Source: Methylacidimicrobium sp. B4 (GTDB lineage Bacteria; Verrucomicrobiota; Verrucomicrobiia; Methylacidiphilales; Methylacidiphilaceae). From it: a DNA stretch of 64,000 nucleotides. Made by a program: the position numbers and the translations under genes. Below are positions 20,765-50,699 of the stretch, piece by piece. Each line of letters starts with the position of its first letter. The stretch's first letter is position 1. The notes beneath the pieces were generated by a model. That model saw only the letters and a list, made by a program, of their open reading frames with translations, was not told the origin of the DNA and did not search any database. The stretch is from the NCBI RefSeq assembly GCF_017310545.1, contig NZ_CP066203.1:310001-374000 (forward strand). Reading direction: 5' to 3'.

Positions 20765-22176
20765 GCCTCTTCGCTGTTTCAAGTGGGTAGAGCGGGAAGA
20801 TCGAGCCGCAGCTTTCCGGCTTTGAGGAACGCGGCAATTCTTAGGTAGCGGAAGCTCCGAAAGCCTCTGGCCATCCTTTTGGCAAGCTGGATCAGCCCGT
20901 TGATCGCTTCGATGGTTCCGTTGGTGATCCGGCTCTGGAGAAAGGCGATGATTCCCCCCAGATGCTCTTTGATGGTTTTGGAGAGTCTTCGGAAGGGGGC
21001 AAGCCGACTGCGATCCGCCCACCGGAACCACCAGCGGAGCTCTTGGGGATCCTCCTGGGAGAGGATCTCTTGGAGAGCCTCCCGCAACCCAATGGCTCTT
21101 CCCAATCGAGGATAGGCGGCGCAAAGGGAACTCCGCAGACCCTTCTGCTCCTCGCTTCGCGTCCATTCGTTGCCTCGAAGTGCCCAGAGGCTTCCTTTCG
21201 GCAGCAACCCTTGACGCCCGAACTCCTTGCGCACCTGGTCGACCGCCTCTCCCGCCATCTGCATGACAGGGAAATGATCAAAAATCCTCTCCGCCTTCGG
21301 AAAAAACTCCCGGGCTCCAGAGATGTAGGAGGGGCTCATATCCATGCAGATCGCTTCGATCTGCCCCGGATCGGCATTATGTTCCTTCATCTCCTTGGCG
21401 AAGGCCCCCAGAGCCTCCTTTCCTCTCCCCTCGGCAAGGAAGAGCAGCTTCCGGCTCTCCGCATCGGTAACGACCGTCACGTAACGGTGGCCCCGCTTGC
21501 TACTGGTCTCATCCACCAGGATCTTCTTGACCTCGCTCCAGTCCTCGCGTCGGTAGGCCTTTTCCACGTAGTGCCCCAAGACCCGCCAGAGCCGGGTATC
21601 TTGCTCCTTGAGCATCTCCGCCATCGCGGAAACCGACATCTCCCGGGAAAGCATCAAAATGACCGCCTCCATCATGAGAGTAAACCCGCTCCCCGCCCTG
21701 GCCCAAGGAACCTCCACCAGCCGAACTCCATGCTCCGGACAGTCGATCCGAGGAACCCGAGCGATCAACTCGGTCCGGTACTGCCAGAAGTTCATGTGCC
21801 TCCACCGCTTCTCCACCGTGTCGTGTACGGGGGAAGCTCTTCGACATTCCGGACAGGGAAACCGATGACCTTGCTGAAAATCGAGCCAGATCTTCAGAGT
21901 GTGCTCCTTCGCGGAGAGCTCACTCCGGCTCACCTTCCATTCCGAACCCAGTTGCAGCGCCGCAGCAAAAAGCTTGTTCGCATCCATCCCGCAAGCATCA
22001 ACCAGGCAGCCCGGTCTGGCAATCCGCCGTCAAGGAGGATCGACGAAGTCGAAGTGTCCTTGACGGCTTCCTCTCTCCCCAAAAATCCGTCGAAGACGGA
22101 TGGCAAGAGCCCCGCTTCTTGCCATCCCTTAACCGAAATCCGCTCCCCCCTTACCCACTCAATTCAGCGAGGAGCC
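20765..22176 (-). mobile_element. ISL3-family insertion sequence, complete copy, 1,412 bp
   Basis: The terminal inverted repeats are GCCTCTTCGCTGTTTCAAGT at the transposase 3' end and GGCTCCTCGCTGAATTGAGT at the other end. They continue to GGGTA, with mismatches. An 8-bp direct duplication flanks the element, as is normal for ISL3. It carries a single intact transposase gene and a non-coding stretch of about 190 bp upstream of it. It is the only copy here with an unbroken transposase and is a candidate source of activity for the defective copies. Confidence 0.95.
20779..21987 (-). CDS. tnpA: ISL3-family transposase, intact
   Basis: This 402-residue DDE transposase shows an N-terminal zinc-finger/HTH part (HRFPCPECRRASPVHDTVEKRW). 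The catalytic core has KILVDETSSKRGHRYVTVVTD for the first acidic residue and EAICMDMSPSYISG for the second Asp. NGTIEAINGLIQLAKRMARGF follows with the catalytic Glu. This is the ISL3 pattern. Compared with the copies at 38.8 and 45.2 kb it has no frameshift and keeps the second Asp. It would cut and join at the element ends with 8-bp duplications. Confidence 0.95.
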   Translation of the reverse strand: MDANKLFAAALQLGSEWKVSRSELSAKEHTLKIWLDFQQGHRFPCPECRRASPVHDTVEKRWRHMNFWQYRTELIARVPRIDCPEHGVRLVEVPWARAGSGFTLMMEAVILMLSREMSVSAMAEMLKEQDTRLWRVLGHYVEKAYRREDWSEVKKILVDETSSKRGHRYVTVVTDAESRKLLFLAEGRGKEALGAFAKEMKEHNADPGQIEAICMDMSPSYISGAREFFPKAERIFDHFPVMQMAGEAVDQVRKEFGRQGLLPKGSLWALRGNEWTRSEEQKGLRSSLCAAYPRLGRAIGLREALQEILSQEDPQELRWWFRWADRSRLAPFRRLSKTIKEHLGGIIAFLQSRITNGTIEAINGLIQLAKRMARGFRSFRYLRIAAFLKAGKLRLDLPALPT

Positions 22177-22184: not shown

Positions 22185-22865
22185 TCATTCCCTCTCCGCA
22201 GGAACATATCTTCTCATTGCATTTTCCTGAAATCTCTTCCACTGCTCAGGTGGAAGAGGCGGGACATAGTCCTTTGGCAAAAGGCCGAGTTGCTTCCGAG
22301 CTTCAAGTTCTTCTGGAAAATAGGCAGCTAACCGCCCGACAATTGCGTATTTAGGTATCGGACGCTGGCTATAATAAGTTCTCCGAGTTAACCGCTTCAC
22401 CTCTTCAATTCCCCACATTTGGATCTGCTTTTCGATCCACTGCTTGGCCATCTCGGTTGCCTCGGGCAGGGTTAATCCGAGCTGCGTCCATGCGGGTTCC
22501 CGATCGCCCAAGGGCGCAGACGACCAAGGAACCGTAAGGGCACCCTTTTCAATGCGGACAAGAGCGCGCACCCTTCCAGTGCCTTGGTAGTTAGGATCGG
22601 ACTCCCACATGCAGATATCGTACCAGCTCACCCCATCTTTGGCGACGATGTGGCCCATGATGACCTTCGGATTTCCCCAAAATAGCTGATCCAAAAAAGC
22701 CTGAGGAATATCCGGTGGCTTTGAGGAGGGGGAGAGCGAATCCGCCAAGCAGACCGACGCCATCGTAAACGAGAGAAGCAGAACGGCGGCGAGGACCGCG
22801 CGCCCAAGCCAAGAACGACGTGTTGACCCATAAGAGCCCATGGAGATCGGAGCTGGCACAGGCAC
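22185..22865 (-). CDS. Array protein 2, exported, unknown function
   Basis: This 226-residue paralog starts at GTG 22865, with ATG 22841 as an alternative. The signal-like N-terminus is RRSWLGRAVLAAVLLLSF with cleavage near CLADS. It keeps the core VIMGHIVAKDGVSWYDICMW and the YYSQRPIPKYAIVGRL block seen in copy 5. Its C-terminus (PEQWKRFQENAMRRYVPAE) is shared with copy 6, so copies 2, 5 and 6 look like a mosaic shaped by recombination or gene conversion. Confidence 0.8.
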   Translation of the reverse strand: MPVPAPISMGSYGSTRRSWLGRAVLAAVLLLSFTMASVCLADSLSPSSKPPDIPQAFLDQLFWGNPKVIMGHIVAKDGVSWYDICMWESDPNYQGTGRVRALVRIEKGALTVPWSSAPLGDREPAWTQLGLTLPEATEMAKQWIEKQIQMWGIEEVKRLTRRTYYSQRPIPKYAIVGRLAAYFPEELEARKQLGLLPKDYVPPLPPEQWKRFQENAMRRYVPAERE

Positions 22866-22902
22866 TTAGACTCGACGGTTAGATACCAATCTCATCTCTT
22901 TC

Positions 22903-23577
22903 CTATTGCAGTGGGACATATTTTCTTCTTGACTCTTCCTCGATTGCCTTTCGCTCTTCGGGCGTAAAGGGCGGGACATAGTCCTTTGGCAAAATGCCCA
23001 ACTGCTTGTAGGCTTCGATCCTTTCTGGAAAATAGGCGTCGTAAGACCGGAAAAGCAAGCTTTTGAGTGACGGGTGCGCTTCGTAATAGGCTCTCCGAGT
23101 TAACCGTCTCACATCTTCACTTCCCCGGATTTGGATCTGCTTCTCGATCCACTGCTTGGCCATCTCGGTTGCTTCAGGCAGGGTTAATCCGAGCTGCGTC
23201 CAGGCTGGCTCATAATTGCCAAATGGAGCAAACCACCAAGGGACCGTAAGGGTATCCTTTTCAATCCGGACAAAAACCCGCTCCCATCCAATGCCATGGC
23301 GTTCGGGACTCGGATCCCACATGCAGATCTCGTACCAGCTCACCCCGTCTTTGGCGACGATGTGGCCCATGATCACCTTCGGATTTCCCCGAAATAGCTG
23401 ATCCCAAAAGTCCTGAGGAATATCCGGTGGCTTTGAGGACGGGGAGAGGGAGTCCGCCAAGCAGACCGACGCCATCGTAAACGAGAGGAGCAGGGTGGCT
23501 GCGAGGGCACCGCGCCCAACCCAAGAACGACGTGTTGACCCATAAGAGCCCATGGAGATCGGAGCTGGCACAGGCAC
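22903..23577 (-). CDS. Array protein 3, exported, unknown function
   Basis: This 224-residue paralog starts at GTG 23577 with the same MPVPAPISMGSYGS leader as copy 2 and a signal segment ending CLADS. The core is conserved. The section after the core (AHPSLKSLLFRSYDAYFPE) is shared only with copy 4, and the C-terminus (EESRRKYVPLQ) likewise. The gap to copy 2 is 37 bp, so the genes are likely cotranscribed. Confidence 0.8.
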   Translation of the reverse strand: MPVPAPISMGSYGSTRRSWVGRGALAATLLLSFTMASVCLADSLSPSSKPPDIPQDFWDQLFRGNPKVIMGHIVAKDGVSWYEICMWDPSPERHGIGWERVFVRIEKDTLTVPWWFAPFGNYEPAWTQLGLTLPEATEMAKQWIEKQIQIRGSEDVRRLTRRAYYEAHPSLKSLLFRSYDAYFPERIEAYKQLGILPKDYVPPFTPEERKAIEEESRRKYVPLQ

Positions 23578-23614
23578 TTAGACTCGACGGTTAGATACAA
23601 ATCTCATCTATTTC

Positions 23615-24265
23615 CTATTGCAATGGGACATATTTTCTCCTTGACTCTTCCTCGATTGCCTTCCGCTCTTCGGGCGTAAATGGTGAGACATAGTCCTTTG
23701 GCAAAAGGCCCAATTGCTTGCGAGCTTCAATTTCTTCTGGAAAATAGGCATCGTAAGACCGGAAAATCAATTTTGTGAGTGACGGGTGCGCTTCGTAATA
23801 GGTTCTCCTGGTGAACCTCTTCACCTCTTCAATGCCCCGGATTTGAATCTGCTTTTCGATCCACTGCCTGACCATCTCGGTTGCCTCGGGCAAGCTCAAG
23901 CCCAATTGCGTCCACGCGGGCTCATAATTACCGAATGGCGCAAACCACCAAGGGACCGTAAGGGCGCCCTTTTCAATCCGAACGAAAACCCGCTCTTTTC
24001 CAGTGCCTTGGTATTTGGGATCAGACTCCCACATGCAGATATCGTACCAGCTCACCCCGTCTTTGGCGACGATGTGGCCCATGATCACCTTCGGTTTTCC
24101 GCGAAATAGCTGATCCCAAAAATCCTCAGGGATGTCGGAGGGCCTAGAGGAGGGGGAGAGGGGGCCCGCCAAGCAGGCCGGCGCCATCGTAAACGAGAGG
24201 AGCAGGGTGGCGGCGAGGGCACCGCGCCCAAGCCAAGAACGACGTGTTGACCCATAAGAGCGCAT
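23615..24265 (-). CDS. Array protein 4, exported, unknown function
   Basis: The safest start is ATG 24265 (MRSYGSTRRSW), giving 216 residues and a good signal peptide ending CLAGP. At the position of the start codon of copies 1 and 5 this copy has CTG (24316), which could be used as an alternative start. The core VIMGHIVAKDGVSWYDICMW is present. The AHPSLTKLIFRSYDAYFPE block and EESRRKYVPLQ tail pair it with copy 3. The upstream junction with copy 5 is the empty-site equivalent of the IS target. Confidence 0.75.
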   Translation of the reverse strand: MRSYGSTRRSWLGRGALAATLLLSFTMAPACLAGPLSPSSRPSDIPEDFWDQLFRGKPKVIMGHIVAKDGVSWYDICMWESDPKYQGTGKERVFVRIEKGALTVPWWFAPFGNYEPAWTQLGLSLPEATEMVRQWIEKQIQIRGIEEVKRFTRRTYYEAHPSLTKLIFRSYDAYFPEEIEARKQLGLLPKDYVSPFTPEERKAIEEESRRKYVPLQ

Positions 24266-24326
24266 GGAGTGCAGCGCCGGTGTTAGTAGGCTGAAACCCA
24301 GAAGCAGGTAGCGCAGCCCCTGCTTC

Positions 24327-25034
24327 TCATTCCCTCTCCGCAGGAACGTATCTTCTCCTGGAACCTTCCTCGATTGCCTTTCGCTCTTCGGGAGTAAAGG
24401 GCGGGACATAGTCCTTTGGCAAAAGGCCTAATTGCTTGCGAGCTTCAATTTCTTCTGGAAAATAGGCAGCTAACCGCCCGACAATTGCGTATTTGGGTAT
24501 CGGACGCTGGCTATAATAAGTTCTCCGAGTTAACCGCTTCACCTCTTCAATTCCCCACATTTGGATCTGCTTCTCGATCCACTGCTTGGCCATCTCGGTT
24601 GCCTCGGGCAGGGTTAATCCGAGCTGCGTCCACGCGGGTTCCCGATCGCCAAAGGGCTCAGACCACCAAGGGACCGTAAGCTCACCTTTTTCTATCCGGA
24701 CAAAAACGCGCTCCCATCCAATGCCTTGCTCTTCTGGACTCGGATCCCACATGCAGATATCGTACCAGCTCACCCCGTCTTTGGCGACGATGTGGCCCAT
24801 GATCACCTTCGGATTTCCCCGAAATAGCTGATCCCAAAAGTCCTGAGGAATATCTGGTGGCTTTGAGGAGGGGGAGAGCGAACCCGCCAAGCAGACCGAC
24901 GCCATCGTAAACGAGAGGAGCAGGGTGGCGGCGAGGGCTGGGCGCCTAAGCCAAGAGCGGCGTGTTGACCCATAAGAGCGCATGGAGTGCAGCGCCGGTG
25001 TTAGTAGGCTGAAGCCCACAAGCTGGTAGGGCAT
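24327..25034 (-). CDS. Array protein 5, exported, unknown function
   Basis: This 235-residue paralog starts at ATG 25034, 10 bp after the stop of copy 6. It has the longer leader with two hydrophobic stretches (LVGFSLLTPALHS and ALAATLLLSFTMASVCLAGS). The core is conserved (VIMGHIVAKDGVSWYDICMWDP; LTVPWWSEPFGDREPAWTQ). The C-terminus EEGSRRRYVPAERE resembles copy 1. Most of its middle section matches copy 2. Confidence 0.8.
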   Translation of the reverse strand: MPYQLVGFSLLTPALHSMRSYGSTRRSWLRRPALAATLLLSFTMASVCLAGSLSPSSKPPDIPQDFWDQLFRGNPKVIMGHIVAKDGVSWYDICMWDPSPEEQGIGWERVFVRIEKGELTVPWWSEPFGDREPAWTQLGLTLPEATEMAKQWIEKQIQMWGIEEVKRLTRRTYYSQRPIPKYAIVGRLAAYFPEEIEARKQLGLLPKDYVPPFTPEERKAIEEGSRRRYVPAERE

Positions 25035-25044
25035 CCTCTGCTTT

Positions 25045-25719
25045 TCATTCCCACTCCGCAGGAACGTATCTTCTCATTGCATTTTCCTGAAATCTCTTCC
25101 ACTGCTCAGGGGGAAGAGGTGGAACATAGTCCTTTGGCAAAAGGCCGAGTTGCTTCTTGGCTTCGATCCTTTCTGGAAAATAAGCAGCGCATGCCCCAGT
25201 GATCCCGTCTTCGGGTGATGGAGGCGAGTCATAATAGGTCCTCCTGGTTAACCGCTTCACCTCTTCAATTCCCCACATTTGGATCTGCTTCTCGATCCAC
25301 TGCTTGGCCATCTCGGTTGCCTCCGGCAGGGTTAATCCGAGCTGCGTCCATGCGGGTTCCCGATCGCCCAAGGGCGCAGACGACCAAGGAACCGTAAGGG
25401 CACCCTTTTCAATGCGGACAAGAGCGCGCACCCTTCCAGTGCCTTGGTAGTTAGGATCGGACTCCCACATGCAGATATCGTACCAGCTCACCCCATCTTT
25501 GGCGACGATGTGGCCCATGATGACCTTCGGATTTCCCCAAAATAGCTGATCCCAAAAAGCCTGAGGAATATCGGGGGGCTTTGAGGAGTGGGAGAGCGAA
25601 CCCGCCAAGCAGACGGATCCGATCATGAGTAAAAGGAAAAGAGGAGCGGCGAGGACCGCGCGCCCAAGCCAAGAGGGGAACATGGGATCCAAGGAGTCCA
25701 GGGGAGTGTTCGTCTTCAT
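25045..25719 (-). CDS. Array protein 6, exported, unknown function
   Basis: This is the first array member in transcription order. The ATG at 25719 overlaps the TGA of the CHAP-like gene (ATGA), so translation is coupled to the pilus-like operon; this is why I reject the longer frame starting at 25821. The N-terminus is the most diverged (MKTNTPLDSLDPMFPSWLGR, then PLFLLLMIGSVCLAGS). The core and the LTVPWSSAPLGDREPAWTQ block match copy 2. The central block (SPPSPEDGITGACAAYFPE) is unique. Confidence 0.8.
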   Translation of the reverse strand: MKTNTPLDSLDPMFPSWLGRAVLAAPLFLLLMIGSVCLAGSLSHSSKPPDIPQAFWDQLFWGNPKVIMGHIVAKDGVSWYDICMWESDPNYQGTGRVRALVRIEKGALTVPWSSAPLGDREPAWTQLGLTLPEATEMAKQWIEKQIQMWGIEEVKRLTRRTYYDSPPSPEDGITGACAAYFPERIEAKKQLGLLPKDYVPPLPPEQWKRFQENAMRRYVPAEWE

Positions 25720-26840
25720 TTTAGTAGGGGGTTGGGATCTGGCCAAGGGCCGACATAGCGAAAGTAGCGAATATGCTTCTCCGAAGCGGTGCCTTGATAG
25801 CCTTGAACGCTCGAATACCACGATTCTACCCGGCTTAGTGGGATTCTTGTCCAGCCGGGATTTGGTGGAAGGTTTGCGCCAGGGGAAACATTGGTCGATA
25901 CGGTGTCCAGTTGTCCACTCTCTCCCTTGTCGATCAGGCCGATGTGACCAATATGCAACCTTCTATCTGTGTCCACATACTCCGGTATCACGAAGGTATC
26001 CCCGGGCTGGACCGCCGATCGAGGGATTTCGACAAAGTTGGGGCTGAGCTTGGAGAGATCGCCGTCTGCCAACTGTTTGGACTCTTCGGGGAACCACGCT
26101 TCGGGGAATCCTGTCGAAAAGAGATCGCTGTATCCGGTTGTCGAGGAGAAGTGGATGTCAGGCATGACGGAGTTATAGACCAGGAGGTAGGGCTCTGGCA
26201 CGACATGCGATGTCATCTGCATCCGAAACCAGCCGTTCAGGCAGACGACGGGTTTAGGTCCGGGGTTTTCCTCCGCCGCATGGAGGTTGGTGAGCAGGTC
26301 GGTCGTATAGGGCCCGTTGGTCGGCGGAGCAGGTGCCTGCTCCTCCATGGGTGGCATGAGTGGGGGAAGGTCTCCGGAAGGGAGACCCGACTGGCTCGTT
26401 TCCTCTGCGGGGATGGGGGGATCACCCATGGCGTTCACCCAGGCCGGGCGATTCGAGAAGTCGTTTCTAAAGTCGGGCGAGGCCGCCTTGAGTTGAGCGG
26501 CTTGGAGCTGCTGGAGCTCGCTTCGGGTCGGCCAGCGGGCCTTCTTGAGGTTCGGCGGGTCGGTGTCGTTCTGGCCGTGCGCATCGGAGGAGTCGGCGCC
26601 ATTGGCGGAGCTGTTGGTGGCTGGCGGTTGCGGCGGAGCGGGTGGGGGTGGGGGATCAGGGCAGCAGGCCTGAGAGGGAGCGGGAGTGGCGCTGGAAGGA
26701 TCACCGGGGTTAGGCTCGGCTACCTGGGCCGGCGCAGGAGTCAAGAGGATGAGCCAGAGGACGGTGGTCTGGAGCGGAAGCTGCGCAAAGGTCGTGCGGC
26801 GCAGGGAAGGAGCGCTTGGCATCGCGTGGCGGATCGGCAT
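25716..26840 (-). CDS. Exported proline-rich protein with possible CHAP/NlpC-like domain
   Basis: This 374-residue protein has a signal peptide (LPLQTTVLWLILLTPAPAQ), a Pro/Ala/Ser-rich linker with two adjacent Cys (QACCPDPPPPPAPPQ) and a C-terminal globular part from about residue 195. That part reads VVCLNGWFRMQ, later PGDTFVIPEYVDTDRRLHIGHIGLIDKG. The order Cys ... PGD ... GHIGLID recalls cysteine peptidases that cut peptidoglycan (CHAP/NlpC), but the match is partial and may be structural only. The architecture parallels gene B: signal, Cys-pair, Pro-rich linker, domain. It sits between the STN protein and the six-gene array. Confidence 0.65.
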   Translation of the reverse strand: MPIRHAMPSAPSLRRTTFAQLPLQTTVLWLILLTPAPAQVAEPNPGDPSSATPAPSQACCPDPPPPPAPPQPPATNSSANGADSSDAHGQNDTDPPNLKKARWPTRSELQQLQAAQLKAASPDFRNDFSNRPAWVNAMGDPPIPAEETSQSGLPSGDLPPLMPPMEEQAPAPPTNGPYTTDLLTNLHAAEENPGPKPVVCLNGWFRMQMTSHVVPEPYLLVYNSVMPDIHFSSTTGYSDLFSTGFPEAWFPEESKQLADGDLSKLSPNFVEIPRSAVQPGDTFVIPEYVDTDRRLHIGHIGLIDKGESGQLDTVSTNVSPGANLPPNPGWTRIPLSRVESWYSSVQGYQGTASEKHIRYFRYVGPWPDPNPLLK

Positions 26841-28411: not shown

Positions 28412-28981
28412 TTAGGGTCTCACACGGAGGTCGGACGGCCGGACGTGGAGCGTCGTGAGCGGAGGAGGCGCTTCCGGAGCGGGGAGAGCCGAGGAGAGGG
28501 GGAGTCCTTCCGTTTGCGTCCACGGGCGAAAGGAGATTTCCGCACGCAAGCTTCCCACTCGGGTTCCCGGCGGACATCCAAGGAAGAAGCGAGCCGGCAC
28601 CAGATCGGGAAGCTCGCGGTCGCAAAAGAGAAGAAATTCGACCGCAGCCTGCGAACGGCACTCCGCCTCCATGAGGATCCCTTCCGGGGCCTGGATCAAG
28701 CCGACCAGCCGAAAATCATCCCTCCGCCGTTGGAAGCGGGTTACCGTATCGACGAGGCGGGTTTCGACCGATCCACCGGTGCGCTGCTCCCACTGCGCAA
28801 GGCGCCATCGTGCTCCTTCGATCTCCTGGGAGTGAAGGTGAAGAAAGGCTTTGGCCTCTTCGCCCTGCCGAGAGTGGGCCGCGCGCCGAGTCGCCTCTTC
28901 CGGGATCCATCGGACCAGCCCGAGAAACAACAGGCTGAGCGCAAGGGAGGAGACAAGAAAGAGGAGTGGGCGGAGGGTCAT
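28412..28981 (-). CDS. PilO-like inner-membrane protein
   Basis: This 189-residue protein has one N-terminal membrane helix (LLFLVSSLALSLLFLGLV), a helical/coiled-coil stretch (EEAKAFLHLHSQEIEGARWRL) and a C-terminal alpha/beta domain (DDFRLVGLIQAPEGILMEAE). This is the size and layout of PilO/GspM proteins of type IV pilus and type II secretion platforms. Its start overlaps the stop of the PilN-like gene (28978-28981), indicating coupled translation. Sequence identity to known PilO is not evident to me. Confidence 0.55.
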   Translation of the reverse strand: MTLRPLLFLVSSLALSLLFLGLVRWIPEEATRRAAHSRQGEEAKAFLHLHSQEIEGARWRLAQWEQRTGGSVETRLVDTVTRFQRRRDDFRLVGLIQAPEGILMEAECRSQAAVEFLLFCDRELPDLVPARFFLGCPPGTRVGSLRAEISFRPWTQTEGLPLSSALPAPEAPPPLTTLHVRPSDLRVRP

Positions 28982-29976
28982 CGCAGATCCTCCCAGCGCA
29001 AGGGCGCGATCAGGGTCGCCCGAATCGGCTCCGCCGCTTGGCTGCCCCCCCCATCCAGTGAATCGGGAATCTTGAGCCCGGTCGGATTGAGCCGGATCTT
29101 CCGTCCCGTGCCCCGCTCGAGGGCTAGGCCGACCATGGCGCCGAAGGTCGCCAGCGCCCCCATGCCGTCGGAATCATAGCTGCGGATCCTGATCTGAATG
29201 CGGCCGGCCTGCGTTGCCGTTGGGGCGATCACCTCCATCTCATCGACAAGAAGCGCCGGCACGGAGGAAAAGGCGACCGCCGCCACGATCGGCCCAAGCC
29301 GGGTCCGCGCCGCCAGCTGGTTGTCGAGAGCGTGGGCCCCTTCGAGAAGCCTTTCGCTCTCTTGGCGCAAACGGATCGCCTGGCTCGCCTCGGCTCCGGC
29401 TTGCCACCACGAGGAGGTCGCAAGCGCCGGCAATGCCTTGGCCGCCAGATAGCAGAAGCTCGCCCCGAGCAAGGTCCAGCCGGCCAGCCAACCCAACCGG
29501 TCAACCGAAAAGCCCCTCAAATCCACGAGAGGGCGAGCAGGGGCTTCCGCCTTGGCTTGCCCATTTTTCCCGGCCGAAAACCCTCCCAACGTCCCGAAAA
29601 GAAGCGGGGGCCTTCTCTTTTCAGTCCGAAGGGAGGGTCCGATCGGCAGAGGGGAGCTGCTCTTCTGGGTGCGAACGAAACAGGAAGCGGGAGGGTCCGG
29701 CGCAGACGGGTGCACCGGGGCGCGGGTCTCGTCGGTTTTCGGAGAGCCCTCCCGGGAATCCGGATGATGCGCCGATGCCTCCCCCGAAGGGGGGAGGCTG
29801 CTGACCGGAGCTTCTTGCGGAAGGGGAGAGCGTTCGCCCGAGTCCCCACTCGCCCTTTCCGCCGCAAAGGCGGGGGTCAGGCGCCGCGCGCTCCCGGCAC
29901 CGGGTGTCACTGCATCGGCTTCGGCGGCTGCTGCCGGAAGGGTCCCGTCTTGGCTCATCATTCCGTTATTCTTCAT
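28978..29976 (-). CDS. PilN-like inner-membrane protein with long cytoplasmic N-terminus
   Basis: This protein of about 332 residues starts at ATG 29976, just after the lipoprotein stop. Residues 1-155 are a low-complexity cytoplasmic tail rich in Pro, Ser and Ala. A membrane helix follows (WLAGWTLLGASFCYLAAKALPAL), then a coiled coil and a ferredoxin-like domain (PALLVDEMEVIAPTATQAGRIQIRIRSYDSD). Helix, coiled coil and alpha/beta domain are typical of PilN/GspL C-terminal parts. The long tail replaces the usual short PilM-binding motif, and no PilM-like gene is visible. Confidence 0.55.
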   Translation of the reverse strand: MKNNGMMSQDGTLPAAAAEADAVTPGAGSARRLTPAFAAERASGDSGERSPLPQEAPVSSLPPSGEASAHHPDSREGSPKTDETRAPVHPSAPDPPASCFVRTQKSSSPLPIGPSLRTEKRRPPLLFGTLGGFSAGKNGQAKAEAPARPLVDLRGFSVDRLGWLAGWTLLGASFCYLAAKALPALATSSWWQAGAEASQAIRLRQESERLLEGAHALDNQLAARTRLGPIVAAVAFSSVPALLVDEMEVIAPTATQAGRIQIRIRSYDSDGMGALATFGAMVGLALERGTGRKIRLNPTGLKIPDSLDGGGSQAAEPIRATLIAPLRWEDLR

Positions 29977-29984
29977 AGGACGCC

Positions 29985-30439: not shown

Positions 30440-30452
30440 CTAGGACATCGGG
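30440..30452 (-). promoter_or_regulatory. CCCGATGTCCTAG box before the pilus-like operon
   Basis: The minus-strand sequence CCCGATGTCCTAG matches the box before gene B in 12 of 13 positions. It lies between divergent transcription units and would drive the operon running from 30404 to at least the last array gene. Confidence 0.5.
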
Positions 30453-30461
30453 ACCGCGAGT

Positions 30462-30473
30462 CGGCTGCCCTAT
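30462..30473 (+). promoter_or_regulatory. CGGCTGCCCTAT box before 30485 gene
   Basis: Plus-strand CGGCTGCCCTAT lies 11 nt before the ATG at 30485 and ends next to AAGGAAG. It is the divergent partner of the box at 30440-30452. Confidence 0.4.
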
Positions 30474-30484: not shown

Positions 30485-30901
30485 ATGGCCAAGGGCAAAC
30501 GAAGCGCTGCCAAGTCACTCCGCCCCGCACTTTGGGAGCGGGGGATGGCGAGCCTATCCGAAGTTATGATCCTGCTGGCCCTTTCCCTCGCGCTTGCCGG
30601 ACGCGCGGGCGACCTCCTCTTCCTGCTTCTCTATCCGGCCTGGTGCGCCTTTTGGGAGTCGAAGATCCGTTCCCGGCCCATTCACTGGCTCCTGCGGTGG
30701 AGGCTTGAGCCCTTCGGCCGATTTACGTTCGTGCGGTCGCTGGCGCGCGGACTTCTCCGCCCGCTTTTCCCTTTCCTTCACCTGGGGTGGCGCCGGGTCA
30801 CCCTCTTCGACTTCTGCACCCGCTGTCGCTGGGCCGTCTGCGCCGGTTGCGGCCAAGCCTCTCCTCCCGTCGCCGCACCGAATCCGGCAGGGCACCGGTA
30901 G
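30485..30901 (+). CDS. Small membrane protein, unknown
   Basis: This 138-residue protein starts at ATG 30485 with AAGGAAG upstream. One or two hydrophobic helices (SEVMILLALSLALAGRAGDLLFLLLYPAWCAF) are followed by a basic, Arg/Trp-rich region and a Cys cluster (FDFCTRCRWAVCAGC), which could bind metal or form disulfides. It is divergent from the pilus-like operon. No family is recognised. Confidence 0.65.
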   Translation: MAKGKRSAAKSLRPALWERGMASLSEVMILLALSLALAGRAGDLLFLLLYPAWCAFWESKIRSRPIHWLLRWRLEPFGRFTFVRSLARGLLRPLFPFLHLGWRRVTLFDFCTRCRWAVCAGCGQASPPVAAPNPAGHR

Positions 30902-32187: not shown

Positions 32188-33237
32188 TTACCGCTTGCGT
32201 TTCGCGCTCTCCCTCGGGAGGCGGACAACGCCAGAACCCAACCCTTCCCGGAGAGCGGTGCCCGCAATCAGCCTTTCCCGCGCCATGGGCGCAAGGGCCT
32301 CGAACGCGTCGTCGCCGCAAACCACGCAAGCGGCCTCGACCTCCCAGGCGGGATAGTAGTAGCGGAGGGCGACGAAGGGACGCAAGGAAATGGGGCAGTC
32401 GCGAAGAATCTCGAGCCACTCCCCCACGAGCTCTTTCCCCTCGACGAGCCGAGGTTCGCTCTTGCGGTCGGGCAGCACCTCGTGGAGGGTACCCACCTCT
32501 TCCTCCGCACCGGGCGCCAATCCGGAGGCATCCAGGCTGAGCAGATGTGGGCCAGGGCAGGGCGGATCGCCCTCCACGTCGGAGAGGCGAGCCGCATCCC
32601 TCCGAACCTTCCGCTGGCTATGGCCGGTGAGGGAGACGACGCGTGCCCGGAGCGCGCCCGCGGCGATCTCGTTGCGCACCCAGTAGGCGGCATATTGGGG
32701 GAAGGAGCTGTTGCGGGTCGGATCGAACCGCTCCAGAGCGCGGTAGATCCCGATGATTCCGTCGCTGCGGATCGCCTCTTGGATCTCCGGTCGTTGCTGC
32801 TCGGTGACGAAGCGGCGCACGATGCGCAAGCCCGCGATCACGAGAGGCTCCGCCACCGCGGCGACATGCATGCGACACCGCCGCCACTCCACCGCGGCGA
32901 AGGAGCCGTCGCCTTCGGCTACCTCACGCAGGTCATTCCACCAAAATGTATTGAGCTTCAACCGATCGAGAAGGGCGAGCACTCCATCGAGCGCAAGGGA
33001 GCGATGGGAACGGAGCAGCGAGATCAGCGCGATCACCTCGGCCGCGTTGACCCGACGTTGCCGACTCGGCTCGTGGAGCAGCAGAAGCCGCTCGGCCAAG
33101 GACTCCCGAGCGGCGGGAACCGCCAAGAGCGCAAGCTTCTCCTGGCGTAAGGCCTCTTGATATGCACCGACCCCCTTCACCCAGTCGATGGGAGTGCTGC
33201 TTTGCTCGTCGCAACCCGGCTCCTCCGCAAGCTTCAC
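32188..33237 (-). CDS. Element-encoded sigma-70-family factor
   Basis: This 349-residue protein starts at GTG 33237 with GAGGA upstream. Region 2 is clear: EIQEAIRSDGIIGIYRALERFDPTR, then SSFPQYAAYWVRNEIAAG, the core-binding and -10-melting helices. A region-3-like part follows (LTGHSQRKVRRDA). Region 4 is weak; the C-terminus has SLRPFVALRYYYPAWEVEAACVVCG in place of the usual -35 HTH. It therefore may rely on an extended -10. Two tandem copies of the element box lie directly upstream, suggesting it controls itself. I infer it drives the transfer regulon. Confidence 0.8.
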   Translation of the reverse strand: MKLAEEPGCDEQSSTPIDWVKGVGAYQEALRQEKLALLAVPAARESLAERLLLLHEPSRQRRVNAAEVIALISLLRSHRSLALDGVLALLDRLKLNTFWWNDLREVAEGDGSFAAVEWRRCRMHVAAVAEPLVIAGLRIVRRFVTEQQRPEIQEAIRSDGIIGIYRALERFDPTRNSSFPQYAAYWVRNEIAAGALRARVVSLTGHSQRKVRRDAARLSDVEGDPPCPGPHLLSLDASGLAPGAEEEVGTLHEVLPDRKSEPRLVEGKELVGEWLEILRDCPISLRPFVALRYYYPAWEVEAACVVCGDDAFEALAPMARERLIAGTALREGLGSGVVRLPRESAKRKR

Positions 33238-33247
33238 GCTTCCTCTT

Positions 33248-33275
33248 TTAGGACAGGAGCGTTAGGACAGGAGCG
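33248..33275 (-). promoter_or_regulatory. Tandem 14-bp repeats carrying the GTCCTAA box
   Basis: TTAGGACAGGAGCG occurs twice in direct succession (33248-33261, 33262-33275). On the minus strand each reads CGCTCCTGTCCTAA, placing the CCTA core 11 and 25 nt before the sigma factor GTG. It fills the whole gap between the sigma gene and the preceding stop. Confidence 0.6.
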
Positions 33276-34469
33276 CTATCCGCTCCGGTCGCATCCCCGA
33301 GTAACGGGCGCTCCATGCGCCATTCTCCGTTCCGCGGAGCTCCACCCGTTTCGCAAGAGAGTCGCCTCGATTTGGCGCTCCTGCGCGCCAGCCTGGCGCT
33401 CGGCTCTCCCCAGCGCCTCCTCGACGATCGCCCGCTCCTGCGGCAGAGCGAGCAATGCAGCGGCCTTTCCGGCCGATTCGCGGATGGCGGTGCCGCTCGC
33501 CACATCGGGGTAGAGACCGCTCCGACTATCAAAGAAATCCTTCACCGACCAGAAGACGATGGCGAAGGCCCGCGCATAGGGATCGGTTACCTTCTTGCTG
33601 GCAAGAAAGTGGAAGAAATGAGACGCCGCGTTCTCTGCCCCGGCACGAAGCTCCCCGCTGACAATGTCGAAAAAGCGGAAGCGCTCCGCAAAGTGATCGG
33701 CGTTCTCAGCCTTGCTTCCGCAAGCGAGGGCGACCCGCTTTGCGGCCTTTCGCGCCCAGCGGGTGGGAGCCGCCGGGCTGACATGCTCGAAGAAGATCCG
33801 CCCCTGGGCGTCGGCGAGCACCCGCTCGCGTCCATCCCGCATCGGACGATAGTATCCCTTCGCCTCCCATGGCCCAGGTTGCTGCAACGCCTCCTCCGCT
33901 CCGGAGAGCAGCCCATTGTCCCGCAGCAGCGCGTCGCTGCGGCTCTGGTAGGCGGAGGCCAGCTTATCGTAGACATCGGCCAAGAGGCGCCGCTGATCGC
34001 TCGGCAGAGACCGGTGGACGCTCGAAACGAACTCTTCGAAGGAAGGAATCTGCTCCCCGTCGAGAGCCTTCTCCGCCCGGTCGTCCGGCTCCGAGAGGGA
34101 TGCGCAGGGTCTTCCCCTCCGATCGGTCACGTGCGCCAGCTCCCGCAGCACGGCTGGATTGCTTTGCCACCGAGGGTCGCGCAGCGCGAGAGCCGTCGCC
34201 CGGCACGCGGCACTGTCGCTCCGGGCTTCCTGGGCCCTTTGCGTCTGCTCGAGCCTCTGGGCAAGCAGGGTCCCCAAGTCGGGAGCCTGCGCGAGCGGTT
34301 GCACCCGATCGGGAAGAGAGTCGGCTTCCCGGCAGAGGGCGGCCAAGCCAGAGCGGCTGAACGATGGGGCGGCGATCCGGATGACCTTTGCCCCTCCTTC
34401 GCCGCTCGGGCCAAGCACCAGAGCGGCCTCCGCCTCGTTGAGGATCGCAAATCCGTTGACCTCGTGCAT
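33276..34469 (-). CDS. Hypothetical protein, 397 residues
   Basis: The protein starts MHEVNGFAILNEAEAALVLG with GAGAAG upstream of the ATG. It is soluble and largely helical. A central block reads FEEFVSSVHRSLPSDQRRLLADVYDKL, and an aromatic-rich block NAASHFFHFLASKKVTDPYARAFAIVFWSVKDFF follows. It has no signal peptide and no motif I recognise. It ends 39 bp before the sigma gene on the same strand, so partial cotranscription is possible despite the boxes in the gap. Confidence 0.65.
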   Translation of the reverse strand: MHEVNGFAILNEAEAALVLGPSGEGGAKVIRIAAPSFSRSGLAALCREADSLPDRVQPLAQAPDLGTLLAQRLEQTQRAQEARSDSAACRATALALRDPRWQSNPAVLRELAHVTDRRGRPCASLSEPDDRAEKALDGEQIPSFEEFVSSVHRSLPSDQRRLLADVYDKLASAYQSRSDALLRDNGLLSGAEEALQQPGPWEAKGYYRPMRDGRERVLADAQGRIFFEHVSPAAPTRWARKAAKRVALACGSKAENADHFAERFRFFDIVSGELRAGAENAASHFFHFLASKKVTDPYARAFAIVFWSVKDFFDSRSGLYPDVASGTAIRESAGKAAALLALPQERAIVEEALGRAERQAGAQERQIEATLLRNGWSSAERRMAHGAPVTRGCDRSG

Positions 34470-34720
34470 CGTTCTTCTCGGGGGAGAATCGGGTCGGCTC
34501 TGACAGGACGGGGATCAGCCGCTCCGTTCCGGTCTCCGCAGATCCCTCTGCTTGGGGGGGGCGGCTCGCAGGACAACGTTCTCCTTTTGAGCGGGGAGAG
34601 AGCCTAAGCCGGGATCCTTCCCCTGTTGGAGCCAGGGCCCGAGGTCCTGTCCGTTCCGGGCCTGGCAGACCCGGCTCTCCTTGGGAAAGGGGACGACAGA
34701 AAAATGAATCGGTTCCATAT

Positions 34721-34733
34721 CCTATGGAGTAGG
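34721..34733 (+). promoter_or_regulatory. CCTATGGAGTAGG box before the AAA ATPase
   Basis: The inverted motif CCTA-N5-TAGG ends 3 nt before ATG 34737. The same arrangement, CCTATGGATTAGG, occurs at 55812. The spacing of 12 nt from CCTA to the start leaves almost no leader. Confidence 0.4.
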
Positions 34734-34736: not shown

Positions 34737-35783
34737 ATGGAGCATCCGTCGGCAACCGAAGCGGCAGAGCCCGATCCGGCGAGCTCGGGTTCGGCGCCCC
34801 GGCTCGCCTTTCCCCCCGACTACATCTTGACGGATCCTGCAGCGATCTTGGCGGTGGAGTGCGCCGTCCATTCGATGGGGCTCGACGAATCGATTGCGGC
34901 GGTCCTCCTCGATGGACCCCCCGGATGCGGCAAGACCTTTCTTGGGAAGTCCCTCGCCCGGGCGTTGGGAGCGAGACGTTATCTCTTTCAGTTCTTCCCG
35001 GGCTGCGGAAAGGAAGAGATCCTTCGCGACCGCTCCCTGGACGGGCAGGGGCTCGTCCCGGGCCTCTTCCCTCAAGCGATTGCCTCCTCCCGGGAGCAGA
35101 AGACGGTCCTCATCCTCAACGAGCTCGACAAGGCCGACGTATCGGTCGACAGCTTCCTCCTGGACTTTCTCAACGAAGGAGCGATCACCATCCCTCAGCT
35201 GGGCGGAGAGCTGCGCGCCGATCCCAACCATCTCTTTGTGACGATCACCAAGAACGATCTCCGGGATGCGACCGAGGCGCTGATCCGCCGCTGCCGCTGC
35301 GTCTACATGGGCTGGCCCAGCCTCGAAACCGAAGTCCGGCTGATCCAGAGCGTCTGGCCCTGGGCGACGAAGCCGCTTTGCGAGCCTCTGATCTCCGCCG
35401 CCAATCAGCTCCGCCAGCACCCGGGAGTGAAGAAAAAACCCTCTCCGCCCGAAATCACCCGGCTGCTGGGCGACTGCTGGCGCATCCGCCGGCGCAACCT
35501 GACCCTCTTGGAGTGGAGCCGCTTTCTGGTGGCCGGCCTGGTCCCTCTCCCGCAGGACCGCAAGTACCTCGAGGAAAACCCGATGGCTCTGGCCGCGCGC
35601 GTCCGCTCCCTGATTCTTGCCGCGGACCGGCGGGCGGAAGCGCCAACGGGCGGGCCAGCGACGCGGGCGAACGGAAGCGGCAATGGATCCACGCGCATCC
35701 CGCCGTTCAGCGAAGAGATCCACTCCCAGGGGCCATCGGAGCCCGCCCGACCCGAGCCTCACGGTCCGGGCTCGCCGGGATGA
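34737..35783 (+). CDS. MoxR-like AAA ATPase
   Basis: This 348-residue protein starts at ATG 34737; ATG 34704 is an in-frame alternative 11 codons upstream. Walker A GPPGCGKT is near residue 60, Walker B is in TVLILNELDKADVSV, and VTITKNDLRDATEALIRRCRC provides sensor 1 and arginine residues. A C-terminal lid region and a 60-residue disordered tail follow. The fold is the dynein-related/MoxR class that remodels protein complexes. No VWA partner gene is adjacent. It may activate an element-encoded complex. Confidence 0.8.
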   Translation: MEHPSATEAAEPDPASSGSAPRLAFPPDYILTDPAAILAVECAVHSMGLDESIAAVLLDGPPGCGKTFLGKSLARALGARRYLFQFFPGCGKEEILRDRSLDGQGLVPGLFPQAIASSREQKTVLILNELDKADVSVDSFLLDFLNEGAITIPQLGGELRADPNHLFVTITKNDLRDATEALIRRCRCVYMGWPSLETEVRLIQSVWPWATKPLCEPLISAANQLRQHPGVKKKPSPPEITRLLGDCWRIRRRNLTLLEWSRFLVAGLVPLPQDRKYLEENPMALAARVRSLILAADRRAEAPTGGPATRANGSGNGSTRIPPFSEEIHSQGPSEPARPEPHGPGSPG

Positions 35784-36051
35784 GTGCGCAGAGAGCCGAT
35801 CGCCGTCGCTTCCCTGCCGCTCTGCACGCGAGCTGCGCGGCATTGGCTGCCCGCACGGATCGCAAGCCAAACGCTTCGGAAGTGCCGCCTCGGTGGCTCT
35901 CGCACCATTGCCAACGGAACGGATGGCCCCGCTCGGAGCATAGGCACAACGCTCCCGTTGCCGGGAAAGCCCGCGGTGGGCAGGGTGAGTGGAGGAAGAG
36001 GACTGCCGTGGCTGCGAGAGGAAGATGCCCCGAGGCGAGGAGTGGCGGTAA
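35784..36051. other. Interval without a convincing gene
   Basis: A frame beginning ATG 35780 overlaps the stop of the ATPase gene and stays open past the next gene start. Its Arg/Ser-rich composition and long overlap argue against it being real. Nothing else is recognisable until the box at 36052. Confidence 0.4.
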
Positions 36052-36062
36052 CCTATCGTTAG
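36052..36062 (+). promoter_or_regulatory. CCTATCGTTAG box before 36067 gene
   Basis: CCTATCGTTAG lies just before ATG 36067 (11 nt from CCTA to the start). No Shine-Dalgarno sequence lies between them. Confidence 0.4.
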
Positions 36063-36066: not shown

Positions 36067-36918
36067 ATGGCGCATGACTGGAAATCCTCCCCTTCGTTGT
36101 CGCAGCAGATCTGGGTCCTGCTTTGGTCCGCTCTTCTCCTCCTCTGGATACCGCTCGACCTCCGCGCATACTGCCGACCATACCATCTTCAGCTCGTCTC
36201 CGTACGGCGTTACTACACGCTCTTCCTCTCTTCGGGGCAGGAGGGGGTTGGGGTAGGGCAGCCGCTGCTGCGGGAGACTGGGCTCCACCGGTTCCGCAAC
36301 TTCGACTCCCGCTGCAGGAACCCCGTCTTCTGGCGGGAGCTCCCCGAGCGGCCCTATCTCGAGTTCCGCGCCTCCGTCGATGAGAGGCCGGTTCTGGTAG
36401 AAAAGGATGGCAGCACCTACACCATTCGCGTGACCTATCCCGGCTACGAGGAAATCGAGGTCCGTACCGATACCCTCCAACGGGTCGTTCCTCAAGGTTT
36501 CCTAGGGAAGGTCGATTTCTTCGAGGATCGGATCATGTGGGGCGGATGGCGGCCGCCGATCGAGGACTACTGGATCGTTGTCGACCTGGGCAAAATGTAT
36601 GCCGCCTACCAGCAAAAGCCCCTCGTGGGCTCCCCTCCGCCTGGCCAGGCTCCTGCCTTTGACCAGGCTCCCCCGACCCCGCGCCCGACCCCCGCCTTTG
36701 GGTTGAGCAGCGGCTCTCTGCCCAATCTACCTCCCCCCTCTGTCCCAAGGAGCGCTCCTCCGCCCACGTTCCAGCAGTTTCTTACGAGCCAGGTGATCCA
36801 GCTCCTTCCCGCCGGGTATCGGATCGAGGGGAACAGGGTCTGGTGGCACTGGAAGCAGATCTACGACTCCGACTGGGATAAGCGGCTCCATGTCGAATGG
36901 AGGGCCTGGTATCGGTAG
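36067..36918 (+). CDS. Exported or membrane-anchored protein, unknown
   Basis: This 283-residue protein has an N-terminal hydrophobic segment (IWVLLWSALLLLWIPLDLRA) that can act as signal or anchor. A beta-rich domain follows (FRNFDSRCRNPVFWREL; YTIRVTYPGYEEIEVRTDTLQ), then a Pro-rich linker at about 190-235 and a Trp-rich C-terminal unit (IQLLPAGYRIEG...RLHVEWRAWYR). The C-terminal unit is repeated as a broken fragment at 47219-47361, showing a paralog once lay there. No family is recognised. Confidence 0.7.
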   Translation: MAHDWKSSPSLSQQIWVLLWSALLLLWIPLDLRAYCRPYHLQLVSVRRYYTLFLSSGQEGVGVGQPLLRETGLHRFRNFDSRCRNPVFWRELPERPYLEFRASVDERPVLVEKDGSTYTIRVTYPGYEEIEVRTDTLQRVVPQGFLGKVDFFEDRIMWGGWRPPIEDYWIVVDLGKMYAAYQQKPLVGSPPPGQAPAFDQAPPTPRPTPAFGLSSGSLPNLPPPSVPRSAPPPTFQQFLTSQVIQLLPAGYRIEGNRVWWHWKQIYDSDWDKRLHVEWRAWYR

Positions 36919-41150: not shown

Positions 41151-41265
41151 CGGTCGTCCTTAGCTTTGGCTGGGTGTCTGTTGCTGGATGGACTCGTCAC
41201 TGGACATTCCACGGAGACCAAGGAACGTTTGCATCCATCATGATACGCCCGTATGATTGAGCGCA

Positions 41266-42555
41266 ATGCGGCGGCTGCAAGCCTTCCAGTACCAACTGCG
41301 GCCAGACGGCCAGCAAGAGAGGCAAATGCGCCGCTTCGCTGGCTCGTGCCGGGTTGTGTTCAACGAGGCGTTGCACTTGCAGATGGCGCGTTACGATGCC
41401 GGGGAGAAAAAGCTCAGTTACGCCGGGCTGTGCAAGGAGCTTACGAAATGGCGTAACGGCGAGCCCATGCCTTCCGGGCGTGTCGCGGCATGGCTGGCCG
41501 ATGCGCCTGTTCATCCCTTGCCACAGGCGCTCAAGGATTTGGAGCGGGCCTACAGTAACTTCTTTGCCCAGCGGGCCGACTTCCCGCGCTTCAAGAGGAA
41601 GGGCCAGTCGGATCGCTTCCGTTACCCCGACCCGAAACAGATCAAGCTCGACCAGGCAAATAGCCGCCTGTTCCTGCCCAAGCTGGGCTGGCTGCGGGTC
41701 CGCCTCAGCCGGCAGGCGCTTGGGACGGTGAAGAACGTCACCGTCAGCCAGTCCTGCGGCAAGTGGTACGTGAGCATCCAGACCGAGCGCGAAGTCGAGC
41801 AACCCATCCCGAAGGGCGGCGCGGTCGGCATCGACATGGGTGTGGCACGGTTTGCCACCCTCTCGGATGGCACGTTCTATGCGCCACTCAAGAGCTTCAA
41901 GCGGCATGAAACCGCCCTGTGCAAGGCGCAGCAGGCCATGAGCCGCAAGATCAAGTGCAGCAACAACTGGAAGAAGGCCAAGGCCCGAATCCAGAAGATT
42001 CATTCCCGCATCGGCAATGCCCGCCGCGACTCCCTGCACAAAGTCACGACCACGATCAGCAAAAACCACGCGATGGTGTGCATCGAGGAGTTGCAGGTGC
42101 GGAACGTGTCCAAGTCGGCTTCGGGCACGGCGGATGCGCCGGGAAGAAACGTTCGGGCCAAGCCTGGACTGAACAAGTCCATCCTCGACCAAGGCTGGTT
42201 CGAGTTCCGGCGGCAGCTGGAGCACAAGATGGAGTGGAGAGGCGGCTGGCTCCTTGTCGTGCCGCCGCAGAACACGAGCCGGACCTGTCCGTGTTGCGGC
42301 CATGTGTCGGCGGACAACCGTCGGACGCAAGCCCGGTTCGAGTGCGTGGAGTGCGGTTTTGAGGAAAACGCCGATCTGGTCGGCGCGATCCATGTTCTAA
42401 GGGCGGGACACGCCCGGATCGCCTGTGAAGTGAGCGGCATCGAGTCGCCAGCAGCAGGAACCCGCCGAAGCGGCTCATTCCGGTTCAAGCCCGGATTGAG
42501 CGCCGTAGGAATCTCCGGGCTTTGGGCCGGGGAGGATGTCAAAGAAACGGGATGA
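41266..42555 (+). CDS. tnpB: TnpB, RNA-guided nuclease family, apparently intact
   Basis: This 429-residue protein starts at ATG 41266; TTG 41257 is an alternative start. The N-terminal HTH part (FAGSCRVVFNEALH) is followed by a wedge region and an intact RuvC domain. The first Asp is in GIDMGVARFATLSDG, the Glu in VCIEELQVRNVS and the final Asp in EENADLVGAIHVLRAG. The zinc finger is CPCCGHVSADNRR...CVECGF. All catalytic residues are present. TnpB uses an RNA from its own 3' end to guide DNA cleavage at donor sites. No TnpA is adjacent. It differs from the TnpB type at 40053. Confidence 0.92.
   Translation: MRRLQAFQYQLRPDGQQERQMRRFAGSCRVVFNEALHLQMARYDAGEKKLSYAGLCKELTKWRNGEPMPSGRVAAWLADAPVHPLPQALKDLERAYSNFFAQRADFPRFKRKGQSDRFRYPDPKQIKLDQANSRLFLPKLGWLRVRLSRQALGTVKNVTVSQSCGKWYVSIQTEREVEQPIPKGGAVGIDMGVARFATLSDGTFYAPLKSFKRHETALCKAQQAMSRKIKCSNNWKKAKARIQKIHSRIGNARRDSLHKVTTTISKNHAMVCIEELQVRNVSKSASGTADAPGRNVRAKPGLNKSILDQGWFEFRRQLEHKMEWRGGWLLVVPPQNTSRTCPCCGHVSADNRRTQARFECVECGFEENADLVGAIHVLRAGHARIACEVSGIESPAAGTRRSGSFRFKPGLSAVGISGLWAGEDVKETG
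42505..42545 (+). ncRNA. Predicted guide-RNA (omega-RNA) 3' hairpin overlapping tnpB end
   Basis: At the 3' end of tnpB, AATCTCCGGGCTTTGGGCC followed by GGGGAGGATGTCAA folds into a CTCCGGGC/GCCGGGGAG-type stem with a short loop and ends in GTCAA. This is the usual end of TnpB guide scaffolds. The guide would begin just after TCAA at about 42542. The fold and end point are inferred from known TnpB elements. Confidence 0.5.
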
Positions 42556-45149: not shown

Positions 45150-46564
45150 GCCTCTTCGCTGCTTCAAGCGGGTAGAGCGGGAAGATCGAGCCGCAACTTT
45201 CCGGCTTTGAGGAACGCGGCAATTCTCAGGTAGCGGAAGCTCCGAAAGCCTCTGGCCATCCTTTTGGCCAGCTGGATCAGCCCGTTGATCGCTTCGATGG
45301 TTCCGTTGGTGATCCGGCTCTGGAGAAAGGCGATGATTCCCCCCAGATGCTCTTGGATGGTTTTCGAGAGTCTTCGGAAGGGAGCAAGCCGACTGCGATC
45401 CGCCCACCGGAACCACCAGCGGAGCTCTTGGGGATCCTCCTGGGAGAGGATCTCTTGGAGAGCCTCTCGCAACCCAATGGCTCTTCCCAATCGAGGATAG
45501 GCGGCGCAAAGGGAACTCCGCAGACCCTTCTGCTCCTCGCTTCGCGTCCATTCGTTACCTCGGAGCGCCCAGAGGCTTCCTTTCGGCAGCAACCCTTGAC
45601 GCCCGAACTCCTTGCGCACCTGGTCGACCGCGTCTCCCGCCATCGGCATGAGCGGGAAAGGATCGAAAATCCTCTCCGCCTTCGGAAAAACCTCCCGGGC
45701 TCCAGAGATGGAGGAGGGGCTCATCTCCATGCAGATCGCTTCGATCTGCCCCGGATCGGCATTCTGTTCCTTCCTCTCCTTGGCGAAGGCCTCCAGAGCC
45801 TCCTTTCCTCTCCCCTCGGCAAGGAAGAGCAGCTTCCGGCTCTCCGCATCGGTAACGACCGTCACGGAACGGTGGCCCCGCTTGCTCCTGGTCTCATCCA
45901 CCAGGATCTTCTTGACCCCGCTCCAGTCCTCGCGTCGGTAGGCCTTTTCCACGGAATGCCCCAAGACCCGCCAGAGCCGGGTATCTTGCTCCTTGAGCAT
46001 CTCCGCCATCGCGGAAACCGACATCTCCCGGGAAAGCATCCAAATGACCGCCTCCATCATGAGAGTAAACCCGCTCCCCGCCCTGGCCCAAGGAACCTCC
46101 ACCAGCCGAACTCCCTGCTCCGGACAGTTGATCCGAGGAACCCGAGCGATCCACTCGGTCCGGTACTGCTCGAAGTGCATCTGCCTCCACCGCTTCTCCA
46201 CCGTGTCGTGTACGGGGGAAGCTCTTCGACATTCCGGAGAGGTGAACCGATGACCTTGCTCCAAACCCGAGCCAGATCTTCAGAGTGTGCTCCTTCGCGG
46301 AGAGCTCACTCCGGCTCACCTTCCCTTCCGAACCCAGTGGCAGCGCCGCAGCAAAAAGCTTGTTCGCGTCCATCCCGCCAGCATTAAGCAAGCAGCCCGG
46401 TCTGGCCATCCGCCGTCAAGGAGGATCGACGAAATCGAAGTCTCCTTGACGGCTTCCTCTCTCCCCAAAAATCCGTCGAAGACGGAGGGCAAGAACCCCG
46501 CTTCTTGCCATCCCTTAACGGAAAATCCGCTCCCCCCCTTACCCACTCAATTCAGCGAGGAGCC
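45150..46564 (-). mobile_element. ISL3 copy, right arm of composite transposon, defective
   Basis: It has the same length (1,415 bp) and ends as the left arm, in opposite orientation. Its left (inner) flank is inside hsdS; its right (outer) flank is TGACATCT. Confidence 0.9.
45164..46373 (-). pseudogene. ISL3 transposase, frameshifted (right arm)
   Basis: The N-terminus starts at ATG 46373 (MDANKLFAAALPLG) but shifts frame at LKIWLGFGARS. The remaining 366 residues (45164-46264) are open. It carries the same Asp-to-Glu change in ICMEMSPSS as the left arm. It lacks the left arm's extra stop, so it is closer to their common defective ancestor. Confidence 0.9.
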
Positions 46565-50684: not shown

Positions 50685-50699
50685 TAATAGGACACCGGC
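50685..50699 (-). promoter_or_regulatory. GCCGGTGTCCTATTA box before the TrbJ-like gene
   Basis: The minus-strand sequence GCCGGTGTCCTATTA ends 9 nt before ATG 50676. It is nearly identical to the box before the VirB8-like gene (CCCGGTGTCCTATTA). Confidence 0.5.

Follow-up and report, generated by a model that had tools for sequence, protein, structure and literature searches.

In diderm bacteria, control of conjugation and type IV secretion system (T4SS) operons usually lies with repressors, activators, or quorum sensing; a private sigma factor for a T4SS, let alone two in one locus, would be unusual. The late promoters of phage T4 are of a −10-only type. In T4, a separate protein, the coactivator gp33, stands in for sigma region 4 beside gp55 (PMC2988020), and in the SigO-RsoA system the functions of region 2 and region 4 are split over two proteins (PMC8103513). 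An element-encoded, self-activating sigma factor has also been described, SigN (ZpdN) from plasmid pBS32 of Bacillus subtilis (PMC6751061). Here we compare with these systems a T4SS locus in the genome of Methylacidimicrobium sp. B4 (2.37 Mb in a single contig, close to strain LP2A). The window that was analyzed is a stretch of 64,000 nucleotides (nt) of this genome.

The open reading frame at 32188-33237 (minus strand) is present as described in an earlier, sequence-only reading of the window, with 349 amino acids and a GTG start. That reading had called the product, here named SigA, a sigma-70-like protein with region 2 kept and region 4 poor, and both statements held. Sigma70_r2 was the sole Pfam match of SigA (31.1 bits; cut-off, 24), with no match to Pfam region 3 or region 4. 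All 12 SigA homologues examined had Sigma70_r2 and none had Pfam region 4; region 3 was found in two of the 12, which by alignment are members of family f3. When a SigA-family profile was compared with sigma factors in the PDB, the match spanned region 2 and the region 3.2 finger and ran into region 4.1, ending before 4.2. In SigA these parts correspond to residues ∼131 to 210 (region 2), ∼232 to 255 (a region 3.2-like finger), and ∼270 to 300 (a remnant of region 4.1); the helix-turn-helix of region 4.2 is absent. The AF2 model was good for residues 19 to 200 and poor beyond residue ∼199. All 50 Foldseek matches listed for this model were sigma chains, RNA polymerase entries, or sigma-derived scaffolds, so the structural check supported sigma identity, with E values just above 0.001 and none at or below 0.001. 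SigA is, then, a genuine member of the sigma-70 family without region 4.2. Because sigma factors lacking region 4 are known (gp55), we class it as a divergent member and not as a standard group 1 to 3 factor.

Region 2.3-2.4 of SigA reads FPQYAAYWVRNEIA, and that of RpoD in the same genome reads FSTYATWWIRQAIT. Comparison with the orthologue in sister genome G001 (90% amino acid identity; dN/dS, 0.045/0.21) indicated purifying selection all along the protein, strongest in region 2 (dN/dS, about 0.11). A PHROG scan matched only phrog_351, a general sigma family, and gave no sequence relationship to gp55; a search against a plasmid collection gave weak matches only, mostly to ordinary sigma factors. 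In strain Kam1, sigA is split after about residue 277 (G011:C1:1149774-1150747) by a frameshift that could be genuine or an artifact of assembly.

The locus around sigA extends from about 26.9 to 79 kb in window numbering, past the end of the window, and is syntenic in both genera. It encodes a TraD/VirD4-like type IV coupling protein (52126-54282, minus strand), a GspE/PilB/VirB11-type secretion ATPase (59283-61301, minus strand), an AAA ATPase of the dynein-related type (34737-35783, plus strand), a TraC-F-type VirB4, ParB, and a TrbC-like pilin whose match was below the Pfam cut-off. A T4SS with VirB4 and coupling ATPases, a trait of integrative and conjugative elements, is present. No relaxase of three Pfam families (PF03432, PF08751, and PF03389) was matched in the whole genome. 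The locus was found in 11 of 13 Methylacidiphilaceae genomes searched, syntenic where contigs allow, and was absent from G006 and G008. Because the locus is old and syntenic and yielded no relaxase of these families, its earlier description as a conjugative element is doubtful; we read it as a T4SS locus that is old and vertically inherited, and not as a mobile element.

By an approximate scaling of gene numbers to positions, the locus corresponds to the "potential integrative plasmid" of Methylacidiphilum strain V4 (Minf_1153-1199), a region reported at one place in Kam1 and SolV as well (PMC2474590, PMC6688271). The passages of these two papers that deal with the V4 integrative plasmid link no sigma factor, type IV system, or conjugation with it and describe no promoter box. 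Five tandem paralogues occupy one end of the locus (22185-25821, minus strand), and related genes lie at the opposite end (79091-83760 in window numbering, beyond the window's end); one of the latter has the box described below before its likely start (81589, minus strand). Inside the locus or next to it are also ISL3-type transposases and an IS605 OrfB-type gene (20779-21987, 41257-42555, and 45164-46264).

SigA co-occurs with the T4SS, even where the two are unlinked. Among 60 relatives, 14 had both TraD and SigA, 2 had TraD only, 1 had SigA only, and 43 had neither; the SigA homologues counted are those that contain the N-terminal domain, and the genomes are related and are not independent events. 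The co-occurrence spans three families. The sigA and traD genes are on separate contigs in families f3 (G014 and G022) and f8 (G024), and in G020 (f9) the SigA homologue is in an apparent operon with GspE-type and AAA ATPase homologues. The f3 homologues were rejected as T4SS linked: they adjoin a galactokinase-like gene, and the TraD homologue is elsewhere in the same genomes. These f3 proteins (G022 and G014) keep region 3 and are encoded on a different contig from the TraD homologue.

A box recurring before transfer-type genes had been proposed, and we found one before many genes of the T4SS locus, with a strong genome-wide concentration there. Its core is TGYCCTAW, or CCTAWT in the sister genus. 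The bare heptamer GTCCTAA was rejected as the motif, since its count in the window showed no enrichment (3 copies versus 2.19 expected; 41 of 100 shuffles reached that count). TGYCCTAW or a near variant begins 18 to 25 nt upstream of the start codons of locus genes, and the distance from box core to start codon is near-constant at about 15 nt (mode, 15 nt). CCTAW was found 14 to 18 nt upstream of 7 of 40 called locus genes, whereas none of the 63 other genes in the stretches compared had it there (P = 0.0009; shuffle mean, 0.28); the core CCTA[AT] had been picked by eye ahead of most tests, and for several genes the box had guided a revision of the start codon. In a motif-free count, CCTAT was the top 5-mer (9 of 36 genes), equalled in 1 of 300 shuffles. 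Genome-wide pattern searches placed 6 of 21 TGTCCTAW sites, and 4 of 6 TGYCCTATTR sites, within about 50 kb (about 2%) of the 2.37 Mb (P about 3e-6 in each case), values that are optimistic because some of the counted sites had suggested the motif. Two TGYCCTATTR sites at 850 to 854 kb, both within predicted genes, were judged to be chance. TGTCCTAW-N9-13-ATG had three sites, all inside the locus, in the B4 genome (G000) and in G001 alike, and its sites were scattered in G006 and G008, which lack SigA. In the sister genus, CCTAWT occurs at orthologous starts, for example, those of the pilin, TraD, and AAA genes. No box was seen before the secretion genes of other families (G020 and G024).

Within the window, boxes lie at 29975-29982 (CGTCCTAT, minus strand, before the gene at 28978-29961), at 30466-30473 (TGCCCTAT, plus strand, before 30485-30901) opposite a divergent box at 30440-30447 (TGTCCTAG, minus strand), at 36049-36056 (TAACCTAT, plus strand, before 36067-36918), and at 61517-61524 (TGTCCTAT, plus strand, before 61542-62318). 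The box at 50687-50694 (TGTCCTAT, minus strand), 18 nt before the ATG of the gene at 49006-50676, has counterparts in this position in G001, G005, and G003. The coupling protein gene has its box at 54296-54303 (TGCCCTAT, minus strand), 21 nt before the ATG, and the sister genus has CCTATTTA at the same place. A box-like sequence, AGTCCTAT, is at 61395-61402 (minus strand), upstream of the GspE/VirB11-type ATPase gene.

Some of the boxes form palindromes of the type CCTATT-N-AATAGG. In the box of the AAA ATPase gene at 34718-34725 (TATCCTAT, plus strand), which is part of the near-palindrome CCTATGGAGTAGG, CCTA stands 16 nt upstream of 34737, the probable true start; in G012 the palindrome upstream of this gene is perfect (ACCTATTTAATAGGT). 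The AAA ATPase is a conserved neighbor, and in G020 its homologue adjoins the SigA homologue. Between the divergent starts 55809 and 55827, one box is at 55809-55816 (TAACCTAT, plus strand), 18 nt before ATG 55827 and overlapping the start of the divergent gene, and another is at 55821-55828 (TGACCTAA, minus strand), 19 nt before ATG 55809. These boxes overlap between the divergent starts both here, where the starts are 17 bp apart, and in G005. Palindromes such as those upstream of 34737, at its orthologues, and in the 55809-55827 interval would fit a box that is the operator of a dimeric regulator, with half-site CCTAT and dyad CCTATT-N-AATAGG, and not a −10 element. However, the majority of sites consist of one half-site only and keep a near-constant distance to the start codon (mode, 15 nt), as expected of a core promoter; furthermore, the dyads are found chiefly where genes diverge, and a pair of overlapping −10 boxes there would look equally symmetric. 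We therefore consider an operator improbable.

That the box keeps nearly the same distance from the start codons would also be expected of an RNA-level element acting on the translation of locus genes. Such an element is hardly credible, because fewer of the genes inside operons have a box (3 of 18) than of the leading genes (8 of 18; P = 0.07) and because the box sits between divergent starts only 17 bp apart.

Directly upstream of sigA, two perfect 14-bp repeats, each holding GTCCTAA, had been reported, and they are present as adjacent copies of TTAGGACAGGAGCG at 33248-33261 and 33262-33275 (minus strand, CGCTCCTGTCCTAA). They occupy most of the 38-bp gap between the stop codon of the upstream gene (33276-34469, minus strand) and the GTG of sigA and are the sole perfect tandem duplication with a period of 10 to 60 in the surrounding 100 kb. 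The tandem arrangement, however, is strain specific. At this spot G001 has a single copy of the repeat, and G005, G003, and G002 have one box each (TGTCCTAA, TGTCCTAA, and TGTCCTAC, respectively). One copy in the sister genomes means that the duplication is recent and that the box itself is old, and it rules out the repeat as a conserved double operator. The conserved box is TGTCCTAA at 33248-33255 (minus strand), 18 nt before the GTG; the duplication supplied the second box, at 33262-33269 (minus strand). Autoregulation of sigA, as earlier suggested, is plausible in the Methylacidimicrobium-like genus, but no box was seen directly before sigA in the sister genus, so it would be genus specific at best.

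The gene upstream of sigA encodes a conserved protein of 397 amino acids whose orthologues (21 to 95% identical) always adjoin sigA in both genera. It had no Pfam or NCBIfam match, and its AF2 model was of low confidence, so it was rejected as a recognizable anti-sigma factor; it is a possible candidate for a SigA partner, regulator, or anti-sigma factor.

We looked for a −35 partner of the box with an information profile covering positions −40 to −4, in which conservation of CCTA[AT] is by construction of the search. In one genus, no column stood out other than those of the box and its TG, and only isolated weak columns appeared in the other. The profile thus gives no hint of a −35 element. 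This agrees with the earlier proposal in so far as it has the promoter do without a −35. That the −10 is an extended one is uncertain: TG precedes the box core in one genus only, and region 3, which reads the extended −10 TG in RpoD, is largely missing from SigA.

We favor the explanation, to which we give a probability of roughly one-half, that SigA serves the old T4SS locus as its own minimal sigma factor and directs a −10-only promoter class there, like that of phage T4 gp55. Region 2 of SigA would dock on core RNA polymerase and read the −10-type box (TGYCCTAW; core, CCTAWT), and its promoters would do without a −35 element because the helix-turn-helix of region 4.2 is missing from SigA. 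If CCTAWT is the hexamer, the transcription start at most sites would be no more than about 7 nt from the start codon, predicting very short or leaderless mRNAs for the secretion genes and, in the Methylacidimicrobium-like genus, for sigA too. Four points here we infer from sequence: the box acts as a promoter element, SigA and no other factor reads it, transcription starts at the predicted sites, and sigA is autoregulated. Several observations weigh against the explanation, namely, the palindromic boxes, the missing box before sigA in the sister genus and before the secretion genes of other families, the frameshift in sigA of Kam1, and the second sigma factor described next. The cluster probably has a private promoter system.

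The locus encodes, in addition, a further sigma factor, newly found beyond the window's end and so out of reach of the earlier reading. SigB, of the sigma-70 family, is encoded just outside the window at 67143-68063 in window numbering (contig C1 377143-378063; minus strand), 34 kb from sigA; sigB adjoins parB (upstream, overlapping by a few bases). SigB scored 61.8 bits against the NCBIfam sigma-70 superfamily (cut-off, 42.9). Of 10 SigB orthologues, all had Pfam Sigma70_r4, and 3 had a weak region 2 match. Its profile aligned to PDB sigma factors over regions 2 to 4, and its region 2.3-2.4 is unusual (YAVHHIGN versus YATWWIRQ in RpoD). Within the family, SigA and SigB have the same presence and absence, both missing from G006 and G008, which lack TraD; because they are identically distributed there, co-occurrence cannot tell which of them reads the box. 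No box lies in front of sigB.

These properties bear on two further explanations. The box could be read by SigB alone, as a complete alternative sigma factor, or by the housekeeping sigma factor with an activator, SigA having its role elsewhere. The superfamily score and the presence of SigB in the same locus speak for this, but the unusual region 2.3-2.4, the lack of a −35 element at the boxes despite the good region 4 of SigB, the lack of a box before sigB itself, and, should CCTAWT be the hexamer, the missing −11 A that TATAAT-type elements have make it quite unlikely. Alternatively, SigA and SigB could form a two-subunit sigma factor, with SigA supplying region 2 for the −10 box and SigB supplying region 4, either reading an ill-conserved −35 element or only anchoring to the beta flap. 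The domains are complementary (region 2 in 12 of 12 and region 4 in 0 of 12 for SigA; region 4 in 10 of 10 and weak region 2 in 3 of 10 for SigB), the two proteins share a locus and, within the family, their distribution, and SigO-RsoA (PMC8103513) and gp55-gp33 (PMC2988020) are precedents. Against this, the alignment of SigB over regions 2 to 4 suggests that it may act alone, the missing −35 weakens the idea unless SigB only anchors, and in f3 the genome G014 has a SigA homologue without a SigB match. We thus hold a two-subunit factor to be unlikely, though a serious candidate. It is with the same reserve that we suggest a chromosomal T4SS with two-protein specificity, in which a −10-only SigA and a region 4 partner, SigB, might switch near-leaderless, often divergent promoters.

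If SigA does read the box, it would be a cellular sigma factor that lacks region 4 by nature and serves a defined set of promoters, and it would allow a test of how small a part of sigma suffices to recognize promoters without a −35 element. The box also yields predicted start sites and a predicted regulon for a secretion locus of these acidophilic methanotrophs.

Among the described systems, SigN is plasmid borne and LexA repressed and kills the cell after DNA damage, and it is not described as a T4SS regulator (PMC6751061). SigA fits the one-domain-each division of SigO-RsoA; SigB, with region 4 in 10 of 10 orthologues yet an alignment over regions 2 to 4, keeps a divergent region 2. Unlike SigO and RsoA, SigA and SigB are encoded 34 kb apart and are a candidate pair only. 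Phage T4 gp55 is like SigA in having sigma-70 region 2 without region 4, and, assuming that the box is the SigA promoter, the information profile shows the gp55-type trait of no conserved −35. SigA differs from gp55 in being larger, in keeping the 3.2 finger and a remnant of 4.1, in being cellular and vertically inherited, and, we infer, in its box. Should SigA and SigB prove to act together, they would be to a cell what the late pair gp55 and gp33 is to phage T4.
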